Below are positions 7,084-63,738 of a stretch of 64,000 nt of DNA, in pieces. Every line of letters starts with the position of its first letter. The first letter of the stretch is position 1. Made by a program: the position numbers and the translations under genes. Source of the DNA: Ideonella benzenivorans (GTDB lineage Bacteria; Pseudomonadota; Gammaproteobacteria; Burkholderiales; Burkholderiaceae_C); assembly GCF_020387415.1 (NCBI RefSeq), contig NZ_JAGWCB010000012.1:372001-436000 (forward strand), given 5' to 3'. Below the pieces are notes generated by a model. It was given only the letters and a program-made list of their open reading frames with translations. It was not told the origin of the DNA and ran no database searches.

Positions 7084-9315
7084 TTGCTTGCTGATTCTGA
7101 CGCACCGATACGTCAGCGCTCCACCAAGAAGGCGCTGCATTCCAAGGAGCTCTACACGGAGCTGGCCTTGGAAATCAAGTTCATCCTCAGGACGTTGGAG
7201 GACCTGACCGACGACCCCGGAGCCAGCGGCGTCCGGGCGTCCGTCAGTGCCATCCTCGAACCGCTCCGGCGCGACACCGGCGGGCGTATCGCCGAACTCG
7301 ACGAGCATGCCGAGTGGGGCACATTTACTATTGCCTTCTACGGGGAAACCAACGCAGGTAAGTCAACTCTAATCGAAACGCTTCGCATCCTCCTCGATGA
7401 GCCCAGTAAGCTCCACGAGCGGCGCCTGTTCGCCGAAGTGCAGCAGAAGCATGGTCTAAGCAGCGAGGACATCCGCGCTGCTGAGGCTGCGATAGCAGCA
7501 GCAGAGCAGCAACTTCAAGCAGGCGCTGCTCGCCAAGCCCAGGAGATAGATACTCTGGAAGCGAGGGTGGCCGAGGCAAGCCGACTGGCTGGAGAGGCTC
7601 AAGCCGCAGCGGCAACCTGGAAATCGTCTGTCAATCTCTGGAATCGCGTAATGGCGATCCTCAGGGGTAGCCCCGCTCAGCAAGCCGTGGAAGAAAAAAG
7701 CCGGCAGCTGCGCGATGCTGCTGCCGCGCGGACGCAGGCTGCGGATGAGCATGCTGCAGCCATGAGTGGGCTGCGGGCAACTCTTGCCGCCAAGCAAGCA
7801 GCGCTGGAGCGTATCCAGTCCCAAGTCGGGATGCTGGCAGAGCATGCGGACGGTCGCATCATCGGAACCGGTCGCTCTGACTTCACGCTGAAGTCCCAGA
7901 TCTACAACTTCGAATGCAACGGCCAGAAGTTCGCTCTGATTGATGTTCCAGGTATTGAGGGCAGCGAGGCTAAGGTCGAGAGCGCGATTTGGGAAGCGGT
8001 TCAGAAGGCACATGCAGTCTTCTACGTGACGCCGAAGCCTGCCGCGCCGCAAATGGGCGACGAAGGCCATAACGGTACGCTCCAGAAAATCAAACTGCAC
8101 CTCGGGAGCCAGACCGAGGTCTGGACCATCTACAACAAGGGCGCTACGAATCCTCTGGCGCTGTCCGGGGACAAGCTCCTTACCCTTGACGAGCAGCGCA
8201 GCCTCAAAGAGCTTGACCGAAAGCTGAGGGGCGAACTCGGGGACAGCTATGCGAAGACCATCTCGGTCAGTGCCAGGCCGGCATACCTTGCTGTGGCCGA
8301 GTGCCACGTCCCCGGAGGGTCAGATGCCAAGGCCAGGGACAAGTTCATGGCCAAGCTCCCAAAGAATGAGCTTCTGGCGCGATCGAACATAGGTGCGCTG
8401 GTCGAGCTCCTGTCCGGTAAGCTTGTGCTGGGACAGCAGGACAAGATTCTGAAGTCAAATCTGTCTAAGGCCCAGAAGTTGGTAAGCCACGCTCACGCAG
8501 AGGTGTCTGCCGTGTACGAGGAGAAGTTAAAGCCATACAAGGCTGAGCTCAATGGTCTCGTCAGGGACTCCTCGCGTCAGTTGGACCTCAGCGCTGACGC
8601 CTTGGTTGCAAGACTTGAAGTCAGCGTCGTTGGCGCAGTCGATTCGTTCGTCAGCGGGCTGCGCGCTTCGACCTACAAGTACATCGACGGCGACGTAGCA
8701 AACGATGATCTTCGTGTTTTCTTCAGGAAACAACGCGACAACCTAAGTGAAGTGCTTGGAACTGAGCTGAAGCGGGAGGTTGAAGCTGAGCTGGTCACGT
8801 TCCGTGAGGAAATCGCCAACTCGCTGGAACGCTTTCGGCAGTTCGCTGAAGACTTGCAGGTTTCGCTTGGCGACCTAACGGTTGCGGGCAAATCTGCTGG
8901 CCTCAAGCTCGAATTTCCGAGCGGCGTGGATTGGATCAGTGCCATTTCAGCCCTTGTCGGAGGTGCCTTGCTCTTCTGGAATCCGATTGGTTGGTATGGC
9001 ATTGCCGCGGGTGCAGTCAGTCTGGTTATCTCCGCGGCGAAGGCACTGTACGGAGTCATTAGCAGTGACTACAAGAAGGCGCAGCAGCGCAAGGCGATCG
9101 ACCAGCAGCTTGGGTCTATCCGCGACTCCGCCTTGGAGGCTATACGGGAGCAGGTGGAACGATGCACAACCAGCGTCCTGGAACAAGTGGACCTCATAAA
9201 GCAGTTGATGTCTCGCCCGCTGGTGCAGGCCGGCGAGGTCAACAAGGCCATCAAGAAGTCGATCGACAAACTACAGAAGCTAGCTGGCTCGCTGGAGCCT
9301 CAGGGAGTGGAATGA
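7084..9315 (+). CDS. leoBC: Dynamin-like GTPase, LeoBC-type (Eleos defence system)
   Basis: A large GTPase of about 743 residues. The P-loop GETNAGKST is at residues 87-95 and G3 DVPG near 287. Between them lies an insertion of about 190 residues that is mostly charged and alanine-rich helix, predicted coiled coil. The G4-like segment YNKGA lacks the usual aspartate. A hydrophobic stretch with two helical halves around NPIGWYG (residues about 617-658) could insert into or press on membrane. I chose the TTG at 7084 because AGGGGAG sits five bases upstream; the longer TTG frame from 7021 has no ribosome site. The next gene overlaps it by ATGA and is a second dynamin-like GTPase. This pairing matches LeoBC/LeoA of the Eleos anti-phage system, related to E. 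coli LeoABC. GC is clearly below that of the flanking genes, suggesting transfer. Confidence 0.8.
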   Translation: MLADSDAPIRQRSTKKALHSKELYTELALEIKFILRTLEDLTDDPGASGVRASVSAILEPLRRDTGGRIAELDEHAEWGTFTIAFYGETNAGKSTLIETLRILLDEPSKLHERRLFAEVQQKHGLSSEDIRAAEAAIAAAEQQLQAGAARQAQEIDTLEARVAEASRLAGEAQAAAATWKSSVNLWNRVMAILRGSPAQQAVEEKSRQLRDAAAARTQAADEHAAAMSGLRATLAAKQAALERIQSQVGMLAEHADGRIIGTGRSDFTLKSQIYNFECNGQKFALIDVPGIEGSEAKVESAIWEAVQKAHAVFYVTPKPAAPQMGDEGHNGTLQKIKLHLGSQTEVWTIYNKGATNPLALSGDKLLTLDEQRSLKELDRKLRGELGDSYAKTISVSARPAYLAVAECHVPGGSDAKARDKFMAKLPKNELLARSNIGALVELLSGKLVLGQQDKILKSNLSKAQKLVSHAHAEVSAVYEEKLKPYKAELNGLVRDSSRQLDLSADALVARLEVSVVGAVDSFVSGLRASTYKYIDGDVANDDLRVFFRKQRDNLSEVLGTELKREVEAELVTFREEIANSLERFRQFAEDLQVSLGDLTVAGKSAGLKLEFPSGVDWISAISALVGGALLFWNPIGWYGIAAGAVSLVISAAKALYGVISSDYKKAQQRKAIDQQLGSIRDSALEAIREQVERCTTSVLEQVDLIKQLMSRPLVQAGEVNKAIKKSIDKLQKLAGSLEPQGVE

Positions 9316-11027
9316 TGAATACGACGCTGGAGAAATTCAAATTGCAGCAGGAGCAAGCCACCGCGCTTCTGAGCAAGGTCAAGGAGTTCCTCAAACAGGG
9401 GCAAAAGGTCGGTGTGCCGATAGATGATTCCCTGGTCGACAAGGTCGAGCGCGCCATCCGAGAGGCCGGGGGCGGTAGGCTCAAGATTGTTCTGGTTGGC
9501 GGCTTCTCCGAGGGAAAGACCTCGATCGCCGCGGCCTGGATCGGGCGGCTAGATCGCTCGACGATGAAGATCAGCCACGAAGAGTCTTCCGACGAGGTTG
9601 CAAGCTACGTGGTTGGCAACGACATCCTCATTCTCGACACGCCGGGCCTGTTCGGCTTTAAAGAGAAGACCGCTGCTGATAAAGCGACTGCAGAACGGTA
9701 CAAGGACATCACGCGCAAGTACATCAGCGAGGCGCACCTCGTTCTCTACGTGATGGATCCGAAGAATCCCATCAAGCAGAGCCATGGCGAGGAGCTCAAA
9801 TGGCTGTTCAGGTCGCTGAATTTGTTACCGAGAACCGTGTTCGTGCTCAGTCGCTTCGACCTTGTGGCCGATGTGGAGGACTTGGAGGATTTTCGGCGGA
9901 ATCTTCAGGTGAAGCGCTCGATGGTCATCTCACGCCTTGGCGAGGAGATTCAGCTTTTGCCAGAGGAGCAAGAGGTCCTGTCGGTCGTTGCCGTAGCGGC
10001 GAACCCATTTGACCTCGGTGTCGAGCATTGGCTGGCCAACCCCGAGCAGTTCGGCGCGCTCTCCCACATCTCAGACCTCCAGCGTGCGACGAGCGTGAAG
10101 GTCGAACAAAGTGGCGGTCCCTTGGCGGTTGTTCAAGCGACGAAGCAATCCGTCATCCGGGATGTTCTGACCAAGCAGCTTCCCGTCGCCGTTAAAGTAG
10201 ATGCCCAGATCCAGGCGGAGCTTGAGAAGCTCGATTCAGCGAATGGCCGTCTTCAGAAGCAGCTGACAACCGTCAAAGGTCGCATCTCCGATGTCCGGAT
10301 TGGGCTAAGGAAGTTCGTGACGACCTACTTCACCGACCTCATCCTGCAGGCCAGGGGTCTGGACCAGAACACCTATGTTGACTTCTTCGAGCGGGAGATT
10401 GGCAACGAAGGCGTCGTCCTGGCCGCTAAGCTGCAGAGCGAATTCGAACGCCAACTGAATTCGGTCAAGCTGGAGTTGACAAATCTCAGTGTCAGCGTCG
10501 ATGCCGAGGTCAACCACTTCAACGCCGCGGTCCGGTCCTACGGCAAGCAAGGGGTCGACTACCTGATTGGCGGAAAGCTCATCAACGGTCAGAGCGTGAA
10601 AGCTGCCAGAGACGGTATCGCGGCCACGGCGAAGGTAGTAGGTCTGGACTTGGGCAAGTACCTCAAGTTCAAGCCTTGGGGTGCGGTGAAGCTGGCAAAG
10701 ACCCTCAACGGAGCTGTCGCCATTGTCGGGTTGGCCTTCGACCTGTGGGAGATGTGGGAGAGCAACCAGCGTGAGCGCGCCTTCCGAAAGTCCATCGAGA
10801 AGCTGATTGAGAACTTCGAGGCGCAGCGCATGGACCTGATGAGCCTCATCGACAGTCCCGACTTCGAGAGCAAGTTCTTTGCGGACTACGAGAACCTTTC
10901 AGGTCAAGCTCAGGAGCTGGCTTTCAGCCTTGAAGAACGGCAGGCCAAGCACAAGGAATTCCAAGCTTGGCGGGCCCAGGCTGAAGCGCTGGATGCTGAA
11001 GTGCGGACGCTCAGCTCGGCGAGCTAA
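9312..11027 (+). CDS. leoA: Dynamin-like GTPase, LeoA-type (Eleos defence system)
   Basis: A protein of 571 residues, close to the length of characterised LeoA. The P-loop GGFSEGKTS is at residues 63-71, the G3 motif LDTPGLFG near 108-115, and a G4-like SRFD follows. The rest is long helical trunk, with a hydrophobic, membrane-like stretch near TLNGAVAIVGLAFDLWEMW. Known LeoA has a dynamin fold. The start is ATGATG; 9312 overlaps the LeoBC stop, and 9315 has slightly better spacing from GGGAG. Tight coupling implies equimolar production with LeoBC. Expected role: membrane-acting, phage-triggered defence. That role is inferred from the Eleos family, not shown here. Confidence 0.8.
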   Translation: MMNTTLEKFKLQQEQATALLSKVKEFLKQGQKVGVPIDDSLVDKVERAIREAGGGRLKIVLVGGFSEGKTSIAAAWIGRLDRSTMKISHEESSDEVASYVVGNDILILDTPGLFGFKEKTAADKATAERYKDITRKYISEAHLVLYVMDPKNPIKQSHGEELKWLFRSLNLLPRTVFVLSRFDLVADVEDLEDFRRNLQVKRSMVISRLGEEIQLLPEEQEVLSVVAVAANPFDLGVEHWLANPEQFGALSHISDLQRATSVKVEQSGGPLAVVQATKQSVIRDVLTKQLPVAVKVDAQIQAELEKLDSANGRLQKQLTTVKGRISDVRIGLRKFVTTYFTDLILQARGLDQNTYVDFFEREIGNEGVVLAAKLQSEFERQLNSVKLELTNLSVSVDAEVNHFNAAVRSYGKQGVDYLIGGKLINGQSVKAARDGIAATAKVVGLDLGKYLKFKPWGAVKLAKTLNGAVAIVGLAFDLWEMWESNQRERAFRKSIEKLIENFEAQRMDLMSLIDSPDFESKFFADYENLSGQAQELAFSLEERQAKHKEFQAWRAQAEALDAEVRTLSSAS

Positions 11028-52635: not shown

Positions 52636-52711
<76 letters not shown>

Positions 52712-52849: not shown

Positions 52850-54667
52850 GTGAATGACTCTGACGTGACCCCTTTTCCTGGCGTGTACCTCCGCGAAGGC
52901 AGCACCGTCTACCAGTTCGGAATCCAGGTCCCCACGGACCTGCGAGAACACTTCAAGACCCAATGGGCCGTGCGCAAGTCGCTGGGCACCAAGGACCTCC
53001 GCGAGGCCAACGCAAAGGCGAAGGCCCTGCATGCGGAGTGGGAGGAGAAGTTCGGGGCCCTCCGCAGGAGGCAGAACCCGGAGCCCGTCCCCCTGACCCC
53101 TGCACTGGTCGCCACCTTCGCCCGTGAGGTGCGCCGCTGGGTGCTGGAGGCGGACGACAACATGCGAGCCTTCCCGAGTGCTGCCAGAGCCCTCCAGGTG
53201 GCGCAGCTGGGGAAGCTACGGGCCGAGCTGGAGAAGACCCCCGAGGGGGCCGCGCTGGCCCAAGCCGTGCGCCCCGACCTGTCCGCCTTGACCATCGGAG
53301 GACAGGCCGAGCCCTCACCCGCCCCTGATCCCCTGGCCGGTCTCTCTGCCCCCGAAGCCGAGGCCCTGGCACAGTGGAACGCTGCCGGTGTGGCTGCGGC
53401 TGCTGTGGACATGGCCCGCCAGAACCTGCGCTCTGTCCTGCCCCTGGCCGAGGGCATCGCCCTGGAGATGGGACTGCGGGTGAACTGGACCAGCCCCGAG
53501 GGCGTGCAGGCACTCCGGGAACTCCTCAAGGCGCACCGACAGGCCACAGAGGAGGCCCTGCTGCGAGACCGTGGGGAGGTGATCAACACCCCTGCCGCCG
53601 AGCCCTCCACCAGCGCCAGCAGCGGACACCCTCAGGAAGGCACCCAGCAGCCCGCAGGAGGGCCGAACGGGGCCAAGGCAGGACACACCCCCATGGATGC
53701 CTTTGAGGCTTGGCAAAGGCGCAAGCCTGGGCGACCGGTCAAGTCCGTGGCGAAGTACCGCGCCACAGCCGAGAAGCTCGCCAAGCTCGCCCGCGTGCCC
53801 ATCCTGGAGCAGCTAACCCGGGAGGATGGGCGAGCCATCCAGGACAAGCTGATGGCCGAGGCCACCGAGCGTGGGGGCCGGGCGCAAAACACCGCCGCAT
53901 CGGAGCTGGGCCGCATCAAAACTCTGTTCAATGAGGCCGTGGACCTGGGATGGATTGACCGCAGCCCGATGCCCGCACGAGGCATCGAGAGGATCAAGGC
54001 CGACCGCAGGGCCTGGACGAGGGCCGACCTGCCTCGCCTGTTCGATGACCCCCTCTTCACCGACTATGCCGTGCCCAGCGCCTCCATGGCGGGCCTGGAC
54101 GCTGCCTACTGGCTTCCTCTGCTGGGCCTGTACACCGGGGCCCGGGTGTCCGAGTTGGCGCAACTGCGCACCTCCGACATTGAACACACCGAGGAGGCAG
54201 GCTGGGTGCTGCACATCCAGGAGGATCAGGAGGAGGGCCTGCGGGTCAAGAACGCCCACTCAGTGCGGGACGTGCCCATTCACCCCGAACTGGTGCGCCT
54301 GGGCTTCGTGGACTACTGGCGGGCCATCGCAGAGCACGGGGCGGGCCCCCTGTGGCCTGCACTGCGCCGCACGGAGTTGAACGGTGCCGGGGGCAAGTTC
54401 AGCCAGTGGTTCGGGAAGTACAAGGCCGCCAAGGGCTTCGGCCCTGATCTGGTCTTCCACTCGTTCAGGCACACCGTGGAGACCGAACTGCGGGCCCTGC
54501 GAACCCCTAAGTACCTCATCGACGCCATCACCGGCCACGCTGGAAAGACGGTCGCGGACGACTACGCGCACACCACCGTGGGCACCTTGAGGGAGGCTCT
54601 GGACCCGCTGGCCTACCCTGGCTTGGAGCTGCCCCGGGTGTTCACTGCGCCCGCCTGGAAGCCCTGA
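52850..54667 (+). CDS. int: Tyrosine recombinase integrase
   Basis: A 605-residue integrase. Residues about 1-60 form an arm-binding-type domain (GVYLREGSTVYQFGIQVPTDLREH), then a long Ala/Pro-rich middle. A core-binding SAM-like domain lies at about 280-380. The catalytic domain has the first arginine in TGARVSELAQL, then HSFRHTVETEL (HxxR) and the GHAGKTVADDYAH region with the tyrosine nucleophile in DDYAH. It is longer than typical (about 400). It starts at GTG 52850; there is no strong ribosome site. It sits directly after the tRNA, as expected for a tRNA-targeting integrase. Confidence 0.93.
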   Translation: MNDSDVTPFPGVYLREGSTVYQFGIQVPTDLREHFKTQWAVRKSLGTKDLREANAKAKALHAEWEEKFGALRRRQNPEPVPLTPALVATFAREVRRWVLEADDNMRAFPSAARALQVAQLGKLRAELEKTPEGAALAQAVRPDLSALTIGGQAEPSPAPDPLAGLSAPEAEALAQWNAAGVAAAAVDMARQNLRSVLPLAEGIALEMGLRVNWTSPEGVQALRELLKAHRQATEEALLRDRGEVINTPAAEPSTSASSGHPQEGTQQPAGGPNGAKAGHTPMDAFEAWQRRKPGRPVKSVAKYRATAEKLAKLARVPILEQLTREDGRAIQDKLMAEATERGGRAQNTAASELGRIKTLFNEAVDLGWIDRSPMPARGIERIKADRRAWTRADLPRLFDDPLFTDYAVPSASMAGLDAAYWLPLLGLYTGARVSELAQLRTSDIEHTEEAGWVLHIQEDQEEGLRVKNAHSVRDVPIHPELVRLGFVDYWRAIAEHGAGPLWPALRRTELNGAGGKFSQWFGKYKAAKGFGPDLVFHSFRHTVETELRALRTPKYLIDAITGHAGKTVADDYAHTTVGTLREALDPLAYPGLELPRVFTAPAWKP

Positions 54668-59864: not shown

Positions 59865-59883
59865 TCCTCCTCGTCTCCACCAA
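59865..59883 (+). repeat. attR: copy of the tRNA-Ala 3' end
   Basis: Exact 19-base repeat of 52694-52712. The bases before it do not continue the tRNA, and the terminator at 59891 follows, so this is the right junction of the element. Confidence 0.92.
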
Positions 59884-62152: not shown

Positions 62153-62700
62153 ATGAACCTCCTTGGCCCCGCCCTCCTCTGCCTGCCCTTCGCATTCCTG
62201 CCGGCCTTCTCTTTCGCCTGGGGTGCCCAACCAAGCCCACTGCGCAATCGCCACTGAGGCCTATGCCCAGCTCTCGCCCAAGGCCCGGGCCGACGTGGAC
62301 ACACTGCTGGAGCTGGAGCCTGACGCCACGCTGGCCAGCATCTCTACCTGGGCCGATGAGCACCGGTCGCCTGCTACGGCCCGGTGGCACTTCGTCAACA
62401 TCGCCGCGGACGCTGACTGCCACTACGTCGCAGAGCGCGACTGCCCGGGCGGGGCTTGTGTGGTGGGTGCAATCAAGCGCCAGGCCGCGGTCTTCCGGTC
62501 TACAGCGTCAACACCGGAGCGCCTGAAGGCGTTGAAGTACCTCGTGCACCTTGTCGCCGACGTGCACCAGCCGCTGCACGCTGGCCGGGCTGCGGACAAG
62601 GGCGGCAACCTGTACCAGGTGCATGCCTTCGGCCGGGGCACGAACCTGCACGCGGTGTGGGACTCGGGGCTGGTTCTAGAAGCGCGCAAGCTGTCAGCGA
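62153..62700 (+). pseudogene. S1/P1 nuclease gene, frameshifted and truncated
   Basis: An exported zinc nuclease in decay. The ATG at 62153 opens a signal peptide ending FSFAWG, whose Trp would be the N-terminal zinc ligand, but that frame stops at 62257. The remaining domain is in the next frame: HCAIATEAYAQLSP, STWADEHR, RWHFVNI, LVHLVADVHQPLHAG and NLHAVWDSGL carry the zinc histidines and aspartates. The shift lies at about 62222-62245. Similarity ends at about 62695, some 100 residues short of a normal C-terminus. Confidence 0.75.
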
Positions 62701-62751
62701 TACGAACGGCCCTCTTGAAATTAGAGACAGCGGCCTCAACTGGGGCTCACT

Positions 62752-62868
62752 GCGCGTGTGGCGAAATCGGTATACGCGCCAACTTGCCCAAGGGCCTTAG
62801 ATCACGGGCCTTTGGGAAGTTGGTGGGGTGTGAGCCCCATAGGGGTTCGATTCCCCTCGCGCGCACCA
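62752..62868 (+). tRNA. Class II leucine-type tRNA-like gene with stretched anticodon arm
   Basis: 117 bases with encoded CCA. The acceptor stem GCGCGTG/CGCGCGC (one G-T pair), D-arm GCG/CGC with G18G19, a long variable arm GGGG/CCCC and a canonical T-arm (AGGGG TTCGATT CCCCT) make a complete tRNA frame, with leucine-like discriminator A73. The anticodon region is abnormal: CCAACTT pairs with AAGTTGG, then a bulged G, then a further 10 bp to an apical loop TTAGATCACG. That replaces the usual 5-bp stem and 7-base loop. The apical loop contains TAG (Leu). It may be an intron-bearing precursor, a nonstandard tRNA or a tRNA-like regulator. Confidence 0.75.
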
Positions 62869-63073
62869 TTCCCCGTCACGCCCCCTTGCTTGGCGCCATC
62901 AGCACGGCGTCCCTTGACAACCCGCACGGGTAATCCGGGATTCTGAGGATCACTTTCGGCAGCCAACTCACGGGCTTGTTTCAGCCGAAGAAAGTCGGCT
63001 GGCTAGCCCGCGGTCATGGTCTCCGCTGTGGTCCGGTCCTGGGCGCGGCGCTTCCCGGGCTACCATTCCCATC

Positions 63074-63289
63074 ATGAGCACCGAACAACTCCACGCCAAA
63101 GGCCCAAACGGCGAAAGCTGCATCATCGAACGTATCAGCGCCAGCATCGATACGAGCAATCTGAGCGGACGGTCCAGCCTCACCGGTCTTGCATCGTACC
63201 GGCTCGCCACGGGCGAACGACTCAACCCAACGGAAGACCCGAAGGTGTTCGCGTCGCTCGACGGGCAGCGCCGATACTCGTTGACCTGA
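63074..63289 (+). CDS. Hypothetical protein, 71 residues
   Basis: A conserved-looking small soluble protein: MSTEQLHAKGPNGESCIIERISASIDTSN, then GLASYRLATGERLNPTEDPKVFASLDGQRRYSL. The pattern suggests a short beta domain. I cannot name a family. It lies just downstream of the tRNA-like gene. Confidence 0.55.
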   Translation: MSTEQLHAKGPNGESCIIERISASIDTSNLSGRSSLTGLASYRLATGERLNPTEDPKVFASLDGQRRYSLT

Positions 63290-63388
63290 GCCGACACTGG
63301 CCGGCCCCGCCTTGAATCGCCCCAAGGACTGACCAAGGCCACCGCCGTCGATAACACTTGAGGCTGCTTCAGCACAACCGAACCGACC

Positions 63389-63601
63389 ATGCCCAGCCCG
63401 CCCAAGCCTGTTGCCACGCTCGACTGTCAGACCCTCGACGGCCGCACCATCTTCGTGACGGTCGCCAAGGAAGGACGCCTCTATCACCTATCCGCACCCG
63501 GCGAACGATCCCACATTTGCCATCCATCCGTCAGCAGCCTTGACGGTGTCAGGCGAGAGATCTTGCTGGTGTACCGCGCCCGCGTCGTCCCAACGATCTG
63601 A
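63389..63601 (+). CDS. Hypothetical protein, 70 residues
   Basis: Small protein MPSPPKPVATLDCQTLDGRTIFVTVAKEGRLYHLSAPGERSHICHP..., ending YRARVVPTI. Probably beta-rich. Unrecognised, and not clearly related to its 71-residue neighbour. Confidence 0.45.
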   Translation: MPSPPKPVATLDCQTLDGRTIFVTVAKEGRLYHLSAPGERSHICHPSVSSLDGVRREILLVYRARVVPTI

Positions 63602-63606
63602 CATAC

Positions 63607-63738
63607 ATGAAGCTCTTTGCTCGAGTCCTCTCGGCTCTCGCCGCGGTTGGTAGCCTGGTGTCGTCCGCACTCTGGCTGATATCAGCCAGCCAGCAGAAGA
63701 ACGCGGCGTCACTAGCTAGCTCTGCTAGGGCCTGTTAA
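63607..63738 (+). pseudogene. Small membrane protein cut by an IS
   Basis: MKLFARVLSALAAVGSLVSSALWLISASQQKNAAS has one membrane helix. The frame runs into the IS inverted repeat and stops on its TAA (63736-63738), so the native C-terminus is lost. The IS junction lies at about 63728, after CTAG. Confidence 0.55.

Follow-up and report, generated by a model that had tools for sequence, protein, structure and literature searches.

What is a tRNA-like gene for if the arm that should read the codon has been replaced by a hairpin of 17 bp? We encountered this question in a 64,000-nucleotide stretch of the Ideonella benzenivorans genome (referred to here as the window, to which all coordinates refer), where a class II tRNA with an overlong anticodon hairpin had been proposed at positions 62752-62868 of the + strand. 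The initial annotation was made from the letters alone, and both its coordinates and its description of the anatomy were right. The whole gene spans 117 nt including an encoded CCA, and it was classified as Leu-type from Rfam RF00005 and its identity elements. All arms other than the anticodon arm are intact, as had been claimed. The acceptor stem (5' strand GCGCGTG at 62752-62758; 3' strand, A73, and CCA at 62858-62868) forms all seven of its pairs, one of them G-U; the D arm (62761-62777) has a 3-bp stem and the loop AAATCGGTATA, with A14, A15, G18G19, and A20a; the long variable arm, TGGGG/CCCCA plus U48, occupies 62824-62840; and the T arm (62841-62857) has five of five stem pairs and the loop TTCGATT. 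The elongated anticodon arm covers 45 nt (62779-62823) and reads, from 5' to 3', CCAACTT, G, CCCAAGGGCC, TTAGATCACG, GGCCTTTGGG, and AAGTTGG. It folds into 7 bp, then a G (62786) that bulges out where position 34 would be, and a further 10 bp, for a total of 17 bp that includes one G-U pair. The terminal loop TTAGATCACG (62797-62806) has 10 bases, or 8 nt if one further possible U-G pair closes. All of these features lie on the + strand.

Comparison with shuffled sequences indicates that this fold is more than chance would provide. The full RNA has a z-score of -5.95, with none of 200 shuffles equally stable, and the arm alone has a z-score of -5.99, with none of 1000 shuffles as good and a folding energy between -29.1 kcal/mol (45 nt) and -31.1 kcal/mol (47 nt). 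The Rfam tRNA model scored the gene at 43.8 bits against a cut-off of 29, which places it within the tRNA family. ARAGORN missed the gene when introns were off, and when introns were allowed it reported a “Pro(TGG)” tRNA with a 26-nt intron. The hairpin had also been credited with compensating pairing. A single sequence cannot show this, and the copy that we found in a congener (genome G004) is identical and adds no covariation, so covariation comes only from the unrelated long-arm examples described below.

We examined the leucine identity elements of bacterial tRNA-Leu given in the available text of PMC9976931, and A73, A15-U48, G18G19, A20a, and the long variable arm are all present, as are A14, U54, and A58. 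The gene therefore resembles a bacterial tRNA-Leu in its acceptor, D, and T arms, its long variable arm, A73, CCA, and the leucine-identity elements of the elbow. It differs in that the 17-bp bulged hairpin stands in place of the 7-nt anticodon loop, no Leu anticodon is present, and the gene is redundant with a full set of ordinary Leu tRNAs. The window's own genome (G000) encodes Leu tRNAs with the anticodons CAA, UAA, CAG (two copies), UAG, and GAG; G004 has the same set, and a distant chromosome (G782) that carries a similar gene has each of them once. Because none of the three host genomes lacks any ordinary Leu isoacceptor, the candidate is not needed for decoding, and the long-arm gene adds nothing visible to it. 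The suggestion that the tRNA works with its long arm, for example by decoding through the TAG in its terminal loop, can thus be set aside as extremely improbable. The loop does contain UUAGAU, which resembles the loop of Leu(UAG), but about 12 extra bp would put it far from the decoding centre, G000 already has an ordinary Leu(UAG) gene, and the terminal loops of the other four long-arm genes differ, with no shared anticodon by eye. 

Anticodon stems of natural tRNAs are nearly fixed in length. The exceptions in the available portions of PMC7609411 and PMC13092985 gain or lose one bp, and the longest stems named in the former have 6 bp. tRNAPyl and mitochondrial tRNASer(UCN) are like the candidate in having an anticodon stem of more than 5 bp, but theirs has 6 bp and still presents an anticodon, whereas the candidate has 17 bp and presents none (PMC7609411, in the text available). 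Among the matches listed from the open-access literature, no description of such an arm was recognised. Loss of the anticodon need not mean loss of the amino acid. According to the parts of PMC9976931 available to us, leucylation in E. coli depends on A73 and elbow contacts rather than on the anticodon, a truncated tRNA-Leu still charges, and the anticodon arm matters for editing by LeuRS but not for charging. As charging can proceed without the anticodon arm in E. coli, leucine tRNA would be a scaffold that is able to lose its reading head and stay charged.

An insert in the anticodon arm could also be an intron. The initial annotation had dismissed a group I intron because the hairpin is much too small for one, and we likewise reject such an intron on size and shape. 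The group I intron of tRNA-Leu(UAA) sits at 34/35, and that tRNA and the candidate both have an anticodon-loop insert in a Leu tRNA, but the insert of the candidate is far too short and its excision restores no Leu anticodon. Archaeal tRNA introns are also short helical inserts in the anticodon arm and form a bulge-helix-bulge, a pair of 3-nt bulges around a 4-bp helix; the candidate, by contrast, has no paired 3-nt bulges around a 4-bp helix, and its host is bacterial. A bulge-helix-bulge intron was therefore also rejected on size and shape. The remaining version of the idea, a precursor whose small anticodon-loop intron is spliced by an unknown enzyme, had been among the options first proposed, and we find it very unlikely. 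The intron mode of ARAGORN does fit an intron in the candidate, and phage Leu tRNAs of another set do have the look of intron-containing genes. Nevertheless, excision from an intron-containing pre-tRNA should leave the cognate anticodon, and cutting the candidate down to a 7-nt loop by any of the four possible cuts gives GGG, GCG, or GCC, none of which is a Leu anticodon. The bulge-helix-bulge motif is absent from its fold by inspection, and no isoacceptor is missing from the host. Excision by any of the four cuts restored a Leu anticodon in none of the five long-arm genes, compared with all 10 of the intron-like phage Leu tRNAs, which were picked partly because their loop ends look like a Leu anticodon loop. 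Since random inserts give a Leu anticodon by at least one cut in just 23% of cases, the failure of all five is only mild evidence. The long-arm genes and the intron-like phage tRNAs look like different things.

The intron-like phage tRNA-Leu genes are L340, L344, L351/L356, L357, L354, L342, L252, L274, L363, and L349. They carry an insert of 32-43 nt after position 34, with a hairpin in all but possibly L349, and seven of the 10 have three or more other tRNAs nearby. The core CTACGGAAC...GTTCAAA of this set reappears in L357 with an altered stem. The remaining Leu genes found in L340 and L344 were AAG, TAG, and CAA, and the intron-like gene is the only UAA seen. It is possible that the insert in these genes is a small tRNA intron that does not belong to group I.

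The build of the candidate recurs elsewhere. Leu scans of viral contigs with an encoded CCA returned 34, 19, and 9 stretches (all matches), and an unbranched arm of at least 11 bp was present in 37 of 191 distinct folded elements. We read these 37 individually for a plan in which the 5-bp stem is extended by T32-A38 and T33-A37 and followed by a second helix of 8 bp or more, for an arm of 42-46 nt. The plan was found in the candidate and in three viral contigs (L281, L283, and L339), and the G782 gene is a near variant that departs from it by C-G at 32-38, a T-C mismatch at 30-40, and the absence of a bulge; its predicted arm has 20 bp with one mismatch. The candidate, L339, and L281 have in common 7 bp, a one-base 5' bulge at the same place, and a second helix, with different base pairs, while L283 is a variant with an internal loop in the arm. 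A final scan, which looked for correctly spaced TT...AA and was restricted to a GCG D stem, gave 18 stretches that included L281 and L283 and no further clear member, and a scan of viral contigs for Ser-type tRNAs gave 21 stretches, none of which was seen to have the long-arm build.

The arms could not be aligned by MAFFT, and base pairs were compared by stem position instead. Positions 27-31 of the stem differ in their pairs across the five long-arm genes: pair 27-43 is C-G or G-C, pair 29-41 is A-T, G-T, C-G, or G-C, and pair 30-40 is A-T, T-A, C-G, or T-G, with the T-C of G782 breaking the pair. All five have A73, CCA, A15-U48, G18G19, A20a, U8:A14, U54:A58, and a 7-bp acceptor stem; the D-loop letters, most of the T-loop, and ACCA in L339, L281, and L283 were forced by the search patterns, which left free U48, the acceptor pairs, and, for the candidate and G782, A73. 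Compared pair by pair, the five gene bodies are 56-79% identical (37-53 of 66-69 positions), versus 58-74% to ordinary Leu tRNAs, and because they are hardly more alike than this, common descent of the long-arm genes is unproven. A looser arm criterion (15 bp or more, with gaps of 2 or less) picked out 12 of the 191 elements, versus 3.2 expected from shuffles, and shuffling the five long-arm genes gave sequences that satisfied it in 2.6-6.4% of cases; taken by itself the criterion discriminates poorly, and the arm energies test the point better. Those 12 elements comprise the five long-arm genes, L342 and L354 from the intron-like set, and L149, L167, L210, L343, and L347, which we left out by eye as they do not have the TT/AA plan.

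We also observed a large set of other Leu-like elements in the viral contigs (L137-L256 and several of L372-L384; for example L166, L144, and L373), with at least 117 distinct members. These often read AGTCAGGTGGCGGAATTGGTAGACGC...ACAGGTTCGAATCCTGTCCTGACT, and many are without an ordinary anticodon arm and have a variable middle; a few, such as L146 and L218, combine an ordinary arm with a long variable arm. Among the matches listed, 93 of 117 have at least 6 acceptor pairs, A73 occurs in 63 of those 93, and 87 of the 117 have no other ARAGORN tRNA within 2 kb. HNH endonucleases and terminase small subunits are among the products encoded downstream of these elements (99 proteins, at most 3 per family).

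The gene neighbourhoods of the viral long-arm genes bear on how they are carried. A head-closure gene (phrog_25) and a terminase small-subunit gene (terS; phrog_83) flank the long-arm gene in both L339 and L283, and as the terminase small subunits are only 43% identical, the two phages are not close. Four further relatives were found through the terminase small-subunit protein, and no T-arm motif occurs on that strand in any of the four (5.3-5.4 kb each). In L368 and L369, terS is preceded at 5 and 11 nt by the end of an ORF of similar size (109 and 111 aa), versus 169 nt in L339. The CCA of the L283 gene overlaps the terS start codon, and in L281 an integrase starts 216 nt downstream of the long-arm gene. 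These positions would be accessory-gene sites. The last two arrangements would also suit a cis-acting element that is not a free RNA, either an attachment site or tRNA punctuation that directs an RNase P cut. We consider this improbable for the candidate, as a normal arm would presumably serve punctuation just as well, and among the 16 window ORFs searched against Pfam there is no terminase and the sole integrase is at 52.8 kb. Separately, L281 contains at about 675-740, just before the long-arm gene and the integrase, what looks by eye like the 5' piece of a tRNA-Cys without its 3' half, possibly an attachment-site remnant.

Among bacterial genomes, the gene was found in only two of 16 from the genus, the window's own included (G000 and G004). 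Of 399 family genomes, the window's own was the only one matched by a loose long-Leu pattern, and a stricter form gave the same result among 369 class genomes; these samples and that of the phylum overlap, and the listed genomes of the family samples do not include G004. In 398 phylum genomes the loose pattern matched G000, G782, and G882, the last of which has a different build from the long-arm gene. The covariance-model search that had been recommended was run with a single-sequence model on the 399 family genomes, and ordinary Leu tRNAs filled the matches listed; with at most nine candidates scored per genome in this search, rarity is better judged from the pattern scans. The long-arm gene is missing from two other searched genomes of the family of G782, and no integrase was seen by eye near the G782 gene among ORFs of 220 aa or more. 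Neither the candidate gene in plasmids or phages nor its 1.5-kb region in plasmids gave a match. An exact 18-mer of the arm occurs in 42 stretches of the genome contigs, in a search that may leave out the window's own genome, and none of the 42, each inspected by eye, continues as the candidate arm. The long-arm tRNA class is very rare.

The setting of the candidate is one of broken and mobile DNA. Immediately upstream is a fragment of an S1/P1 nuclease gene (62163-62690, + strand; PF02265, E 1.9e-40, profile positions 6-164 of 258) that is missing approximately the last third of its domain, and the domain match stops about 60 nt before the tRNA, in agreement with the earlier description of a broken nuclease gene. 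The same nuclease gene in G004 (L087, about 7140-9790) is split by an insertion that looks IS21-type by eye. The further description of the region as a mobile patchwork is fair for the surroundings, with an integrase element that ends about 2.9 kb upstream and a transposase fragment about 0.9 kb downstream, but the gene is inside neither. The former runs from a tRNA-Ala(CGC) (52636-52711) and a DUF6538 tyrosine integrase (52850-54667) to an 18-bp copy of the tRNA-Ala 3' end (59865-59882), 7.2 kb on from the tRNA, and is probably an integrated element holding Bro-N and Rha regulators. We rejected the candidate as part of this element based on the distance from its closing repeat. No match to a sigma-70-type promoter or a terminator was found around the candidate in G000 (62500-63100) or in G004. 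An empty site could not be read, as a search of the 16 genus genomes recovered the flank at 62900-63727 from G000 and G004 alone.

Comparison of G000 with G004 provides some insight into recent change at the locus. The segment at 62541-63312 is 98.2% identical to C1 of G004, and the tRNA is 100% identical, with no changes in its 117 nt, whereas the remainder of the 772 nt holds about a dozen events; by our estimate, the identity of the tRNA beyond that of its flanks is not significant. Just before the gene (62741-62750, + strand), G000 has TGGGGCTCAC, which repeats the variable arm (62830-62839) exactly in inverted orientation over 10 bp; G004 has TAATGTTCAC there. The four bases that differ are clustered and create the inverted repeat, a templated-looking change, and a template switch may have acted here in G000.

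This leads to the main rival to a functional RNA, namely that the candidate is a relic: a tRNA-Leu copy that moved with broken DNA and acquired its arm in one template-switch step, with an inactive RNA as the result. A single template-switch mutation during replication can create a perfect stem, according to the text available of PMC8794818, and the argument that the pairing speaks against random decay is weakened to that extent, even though occurrence of the same build in other genomes favours it. The templated-looking change upstream, the lack of a promoter match, the broken nuclease gene in both G000 and G004, and the occurrence of the gene in only two of 16 genus genomes all fit such a relic. 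Conversely, neither genome shows damage to any other arm or to the Leu charging elements tested, and viral contigs repeat the arm plan, in two cases at the same position among the genes. We regard the relic as a real possibility, although we would not wager on it. A recent chimera of two tRNA fragments, which had been named as grounds for abandoning the interpretation, is not supported, as all 7 bp of the acceptor form and the body shares 61-72% identity with each of the host's own Leu isoacceptors. Over about 30 nt, the 5' and 3' pieces of the candidate do match ordinary Leu tRNAs from other genera at 88-93%.

The reading we prefer, to which we assign a probability of roughly 45%, is that the candidate is a chargeable, non-decoding leucine-type tRNA mimic spread by mobile DNA. 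A mimic was one of three options originally put forward, and it is the best of them: the build recurs and the decoding set is complete, while charging and a role are inferences. The presence of the same build in viral contigs and in another bacterium suggests a rare kind of tRNA that is chargeable but unable to read codons. The transcript would be trimmed by RNase P with its encoded CCA kept, and LeuRS would charge it, given that the E. coli enzyme requires A73 and the tRNA elbow but can do without the anticodon. With its 17 bp, the arm exceeds the usual length by about one helical turn and would keep the RNA out of the ribosomal decoding site. Any role would then lie away from the ribosome; the most plausible is that of a decoy or sink that occupies enzymes binding or cutting tRNA-Leu. 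Phages would carry the long-arm tRNA as a single accessory gene, and in G000 it is probably cargo left by mobile DNA. A tRNA gene on a temperate phage is also a feature of tRNA-dependent lysogeny, but there, as described in the available part of PMC10865867, the phage tRNA replaces a disrupted decoding tRNA, whereas the candidate shows no Leu anticodon. The broader proposition, that temperate phages and their relics carry a charged, non-decoding leucyl-tRNA with a 17-bp arm for use off the ribosome, for example as a decoy, is more speculative, and we think it rather unlikely on present evidence. A default ARAGORN run skips a gene of this kind. If the proposition is true, a charged Leu tRNA that reads no codon would hint that tRNA is put to use outside translation, and its placement in phages makes such off-ribosome use testable in a lysogen.
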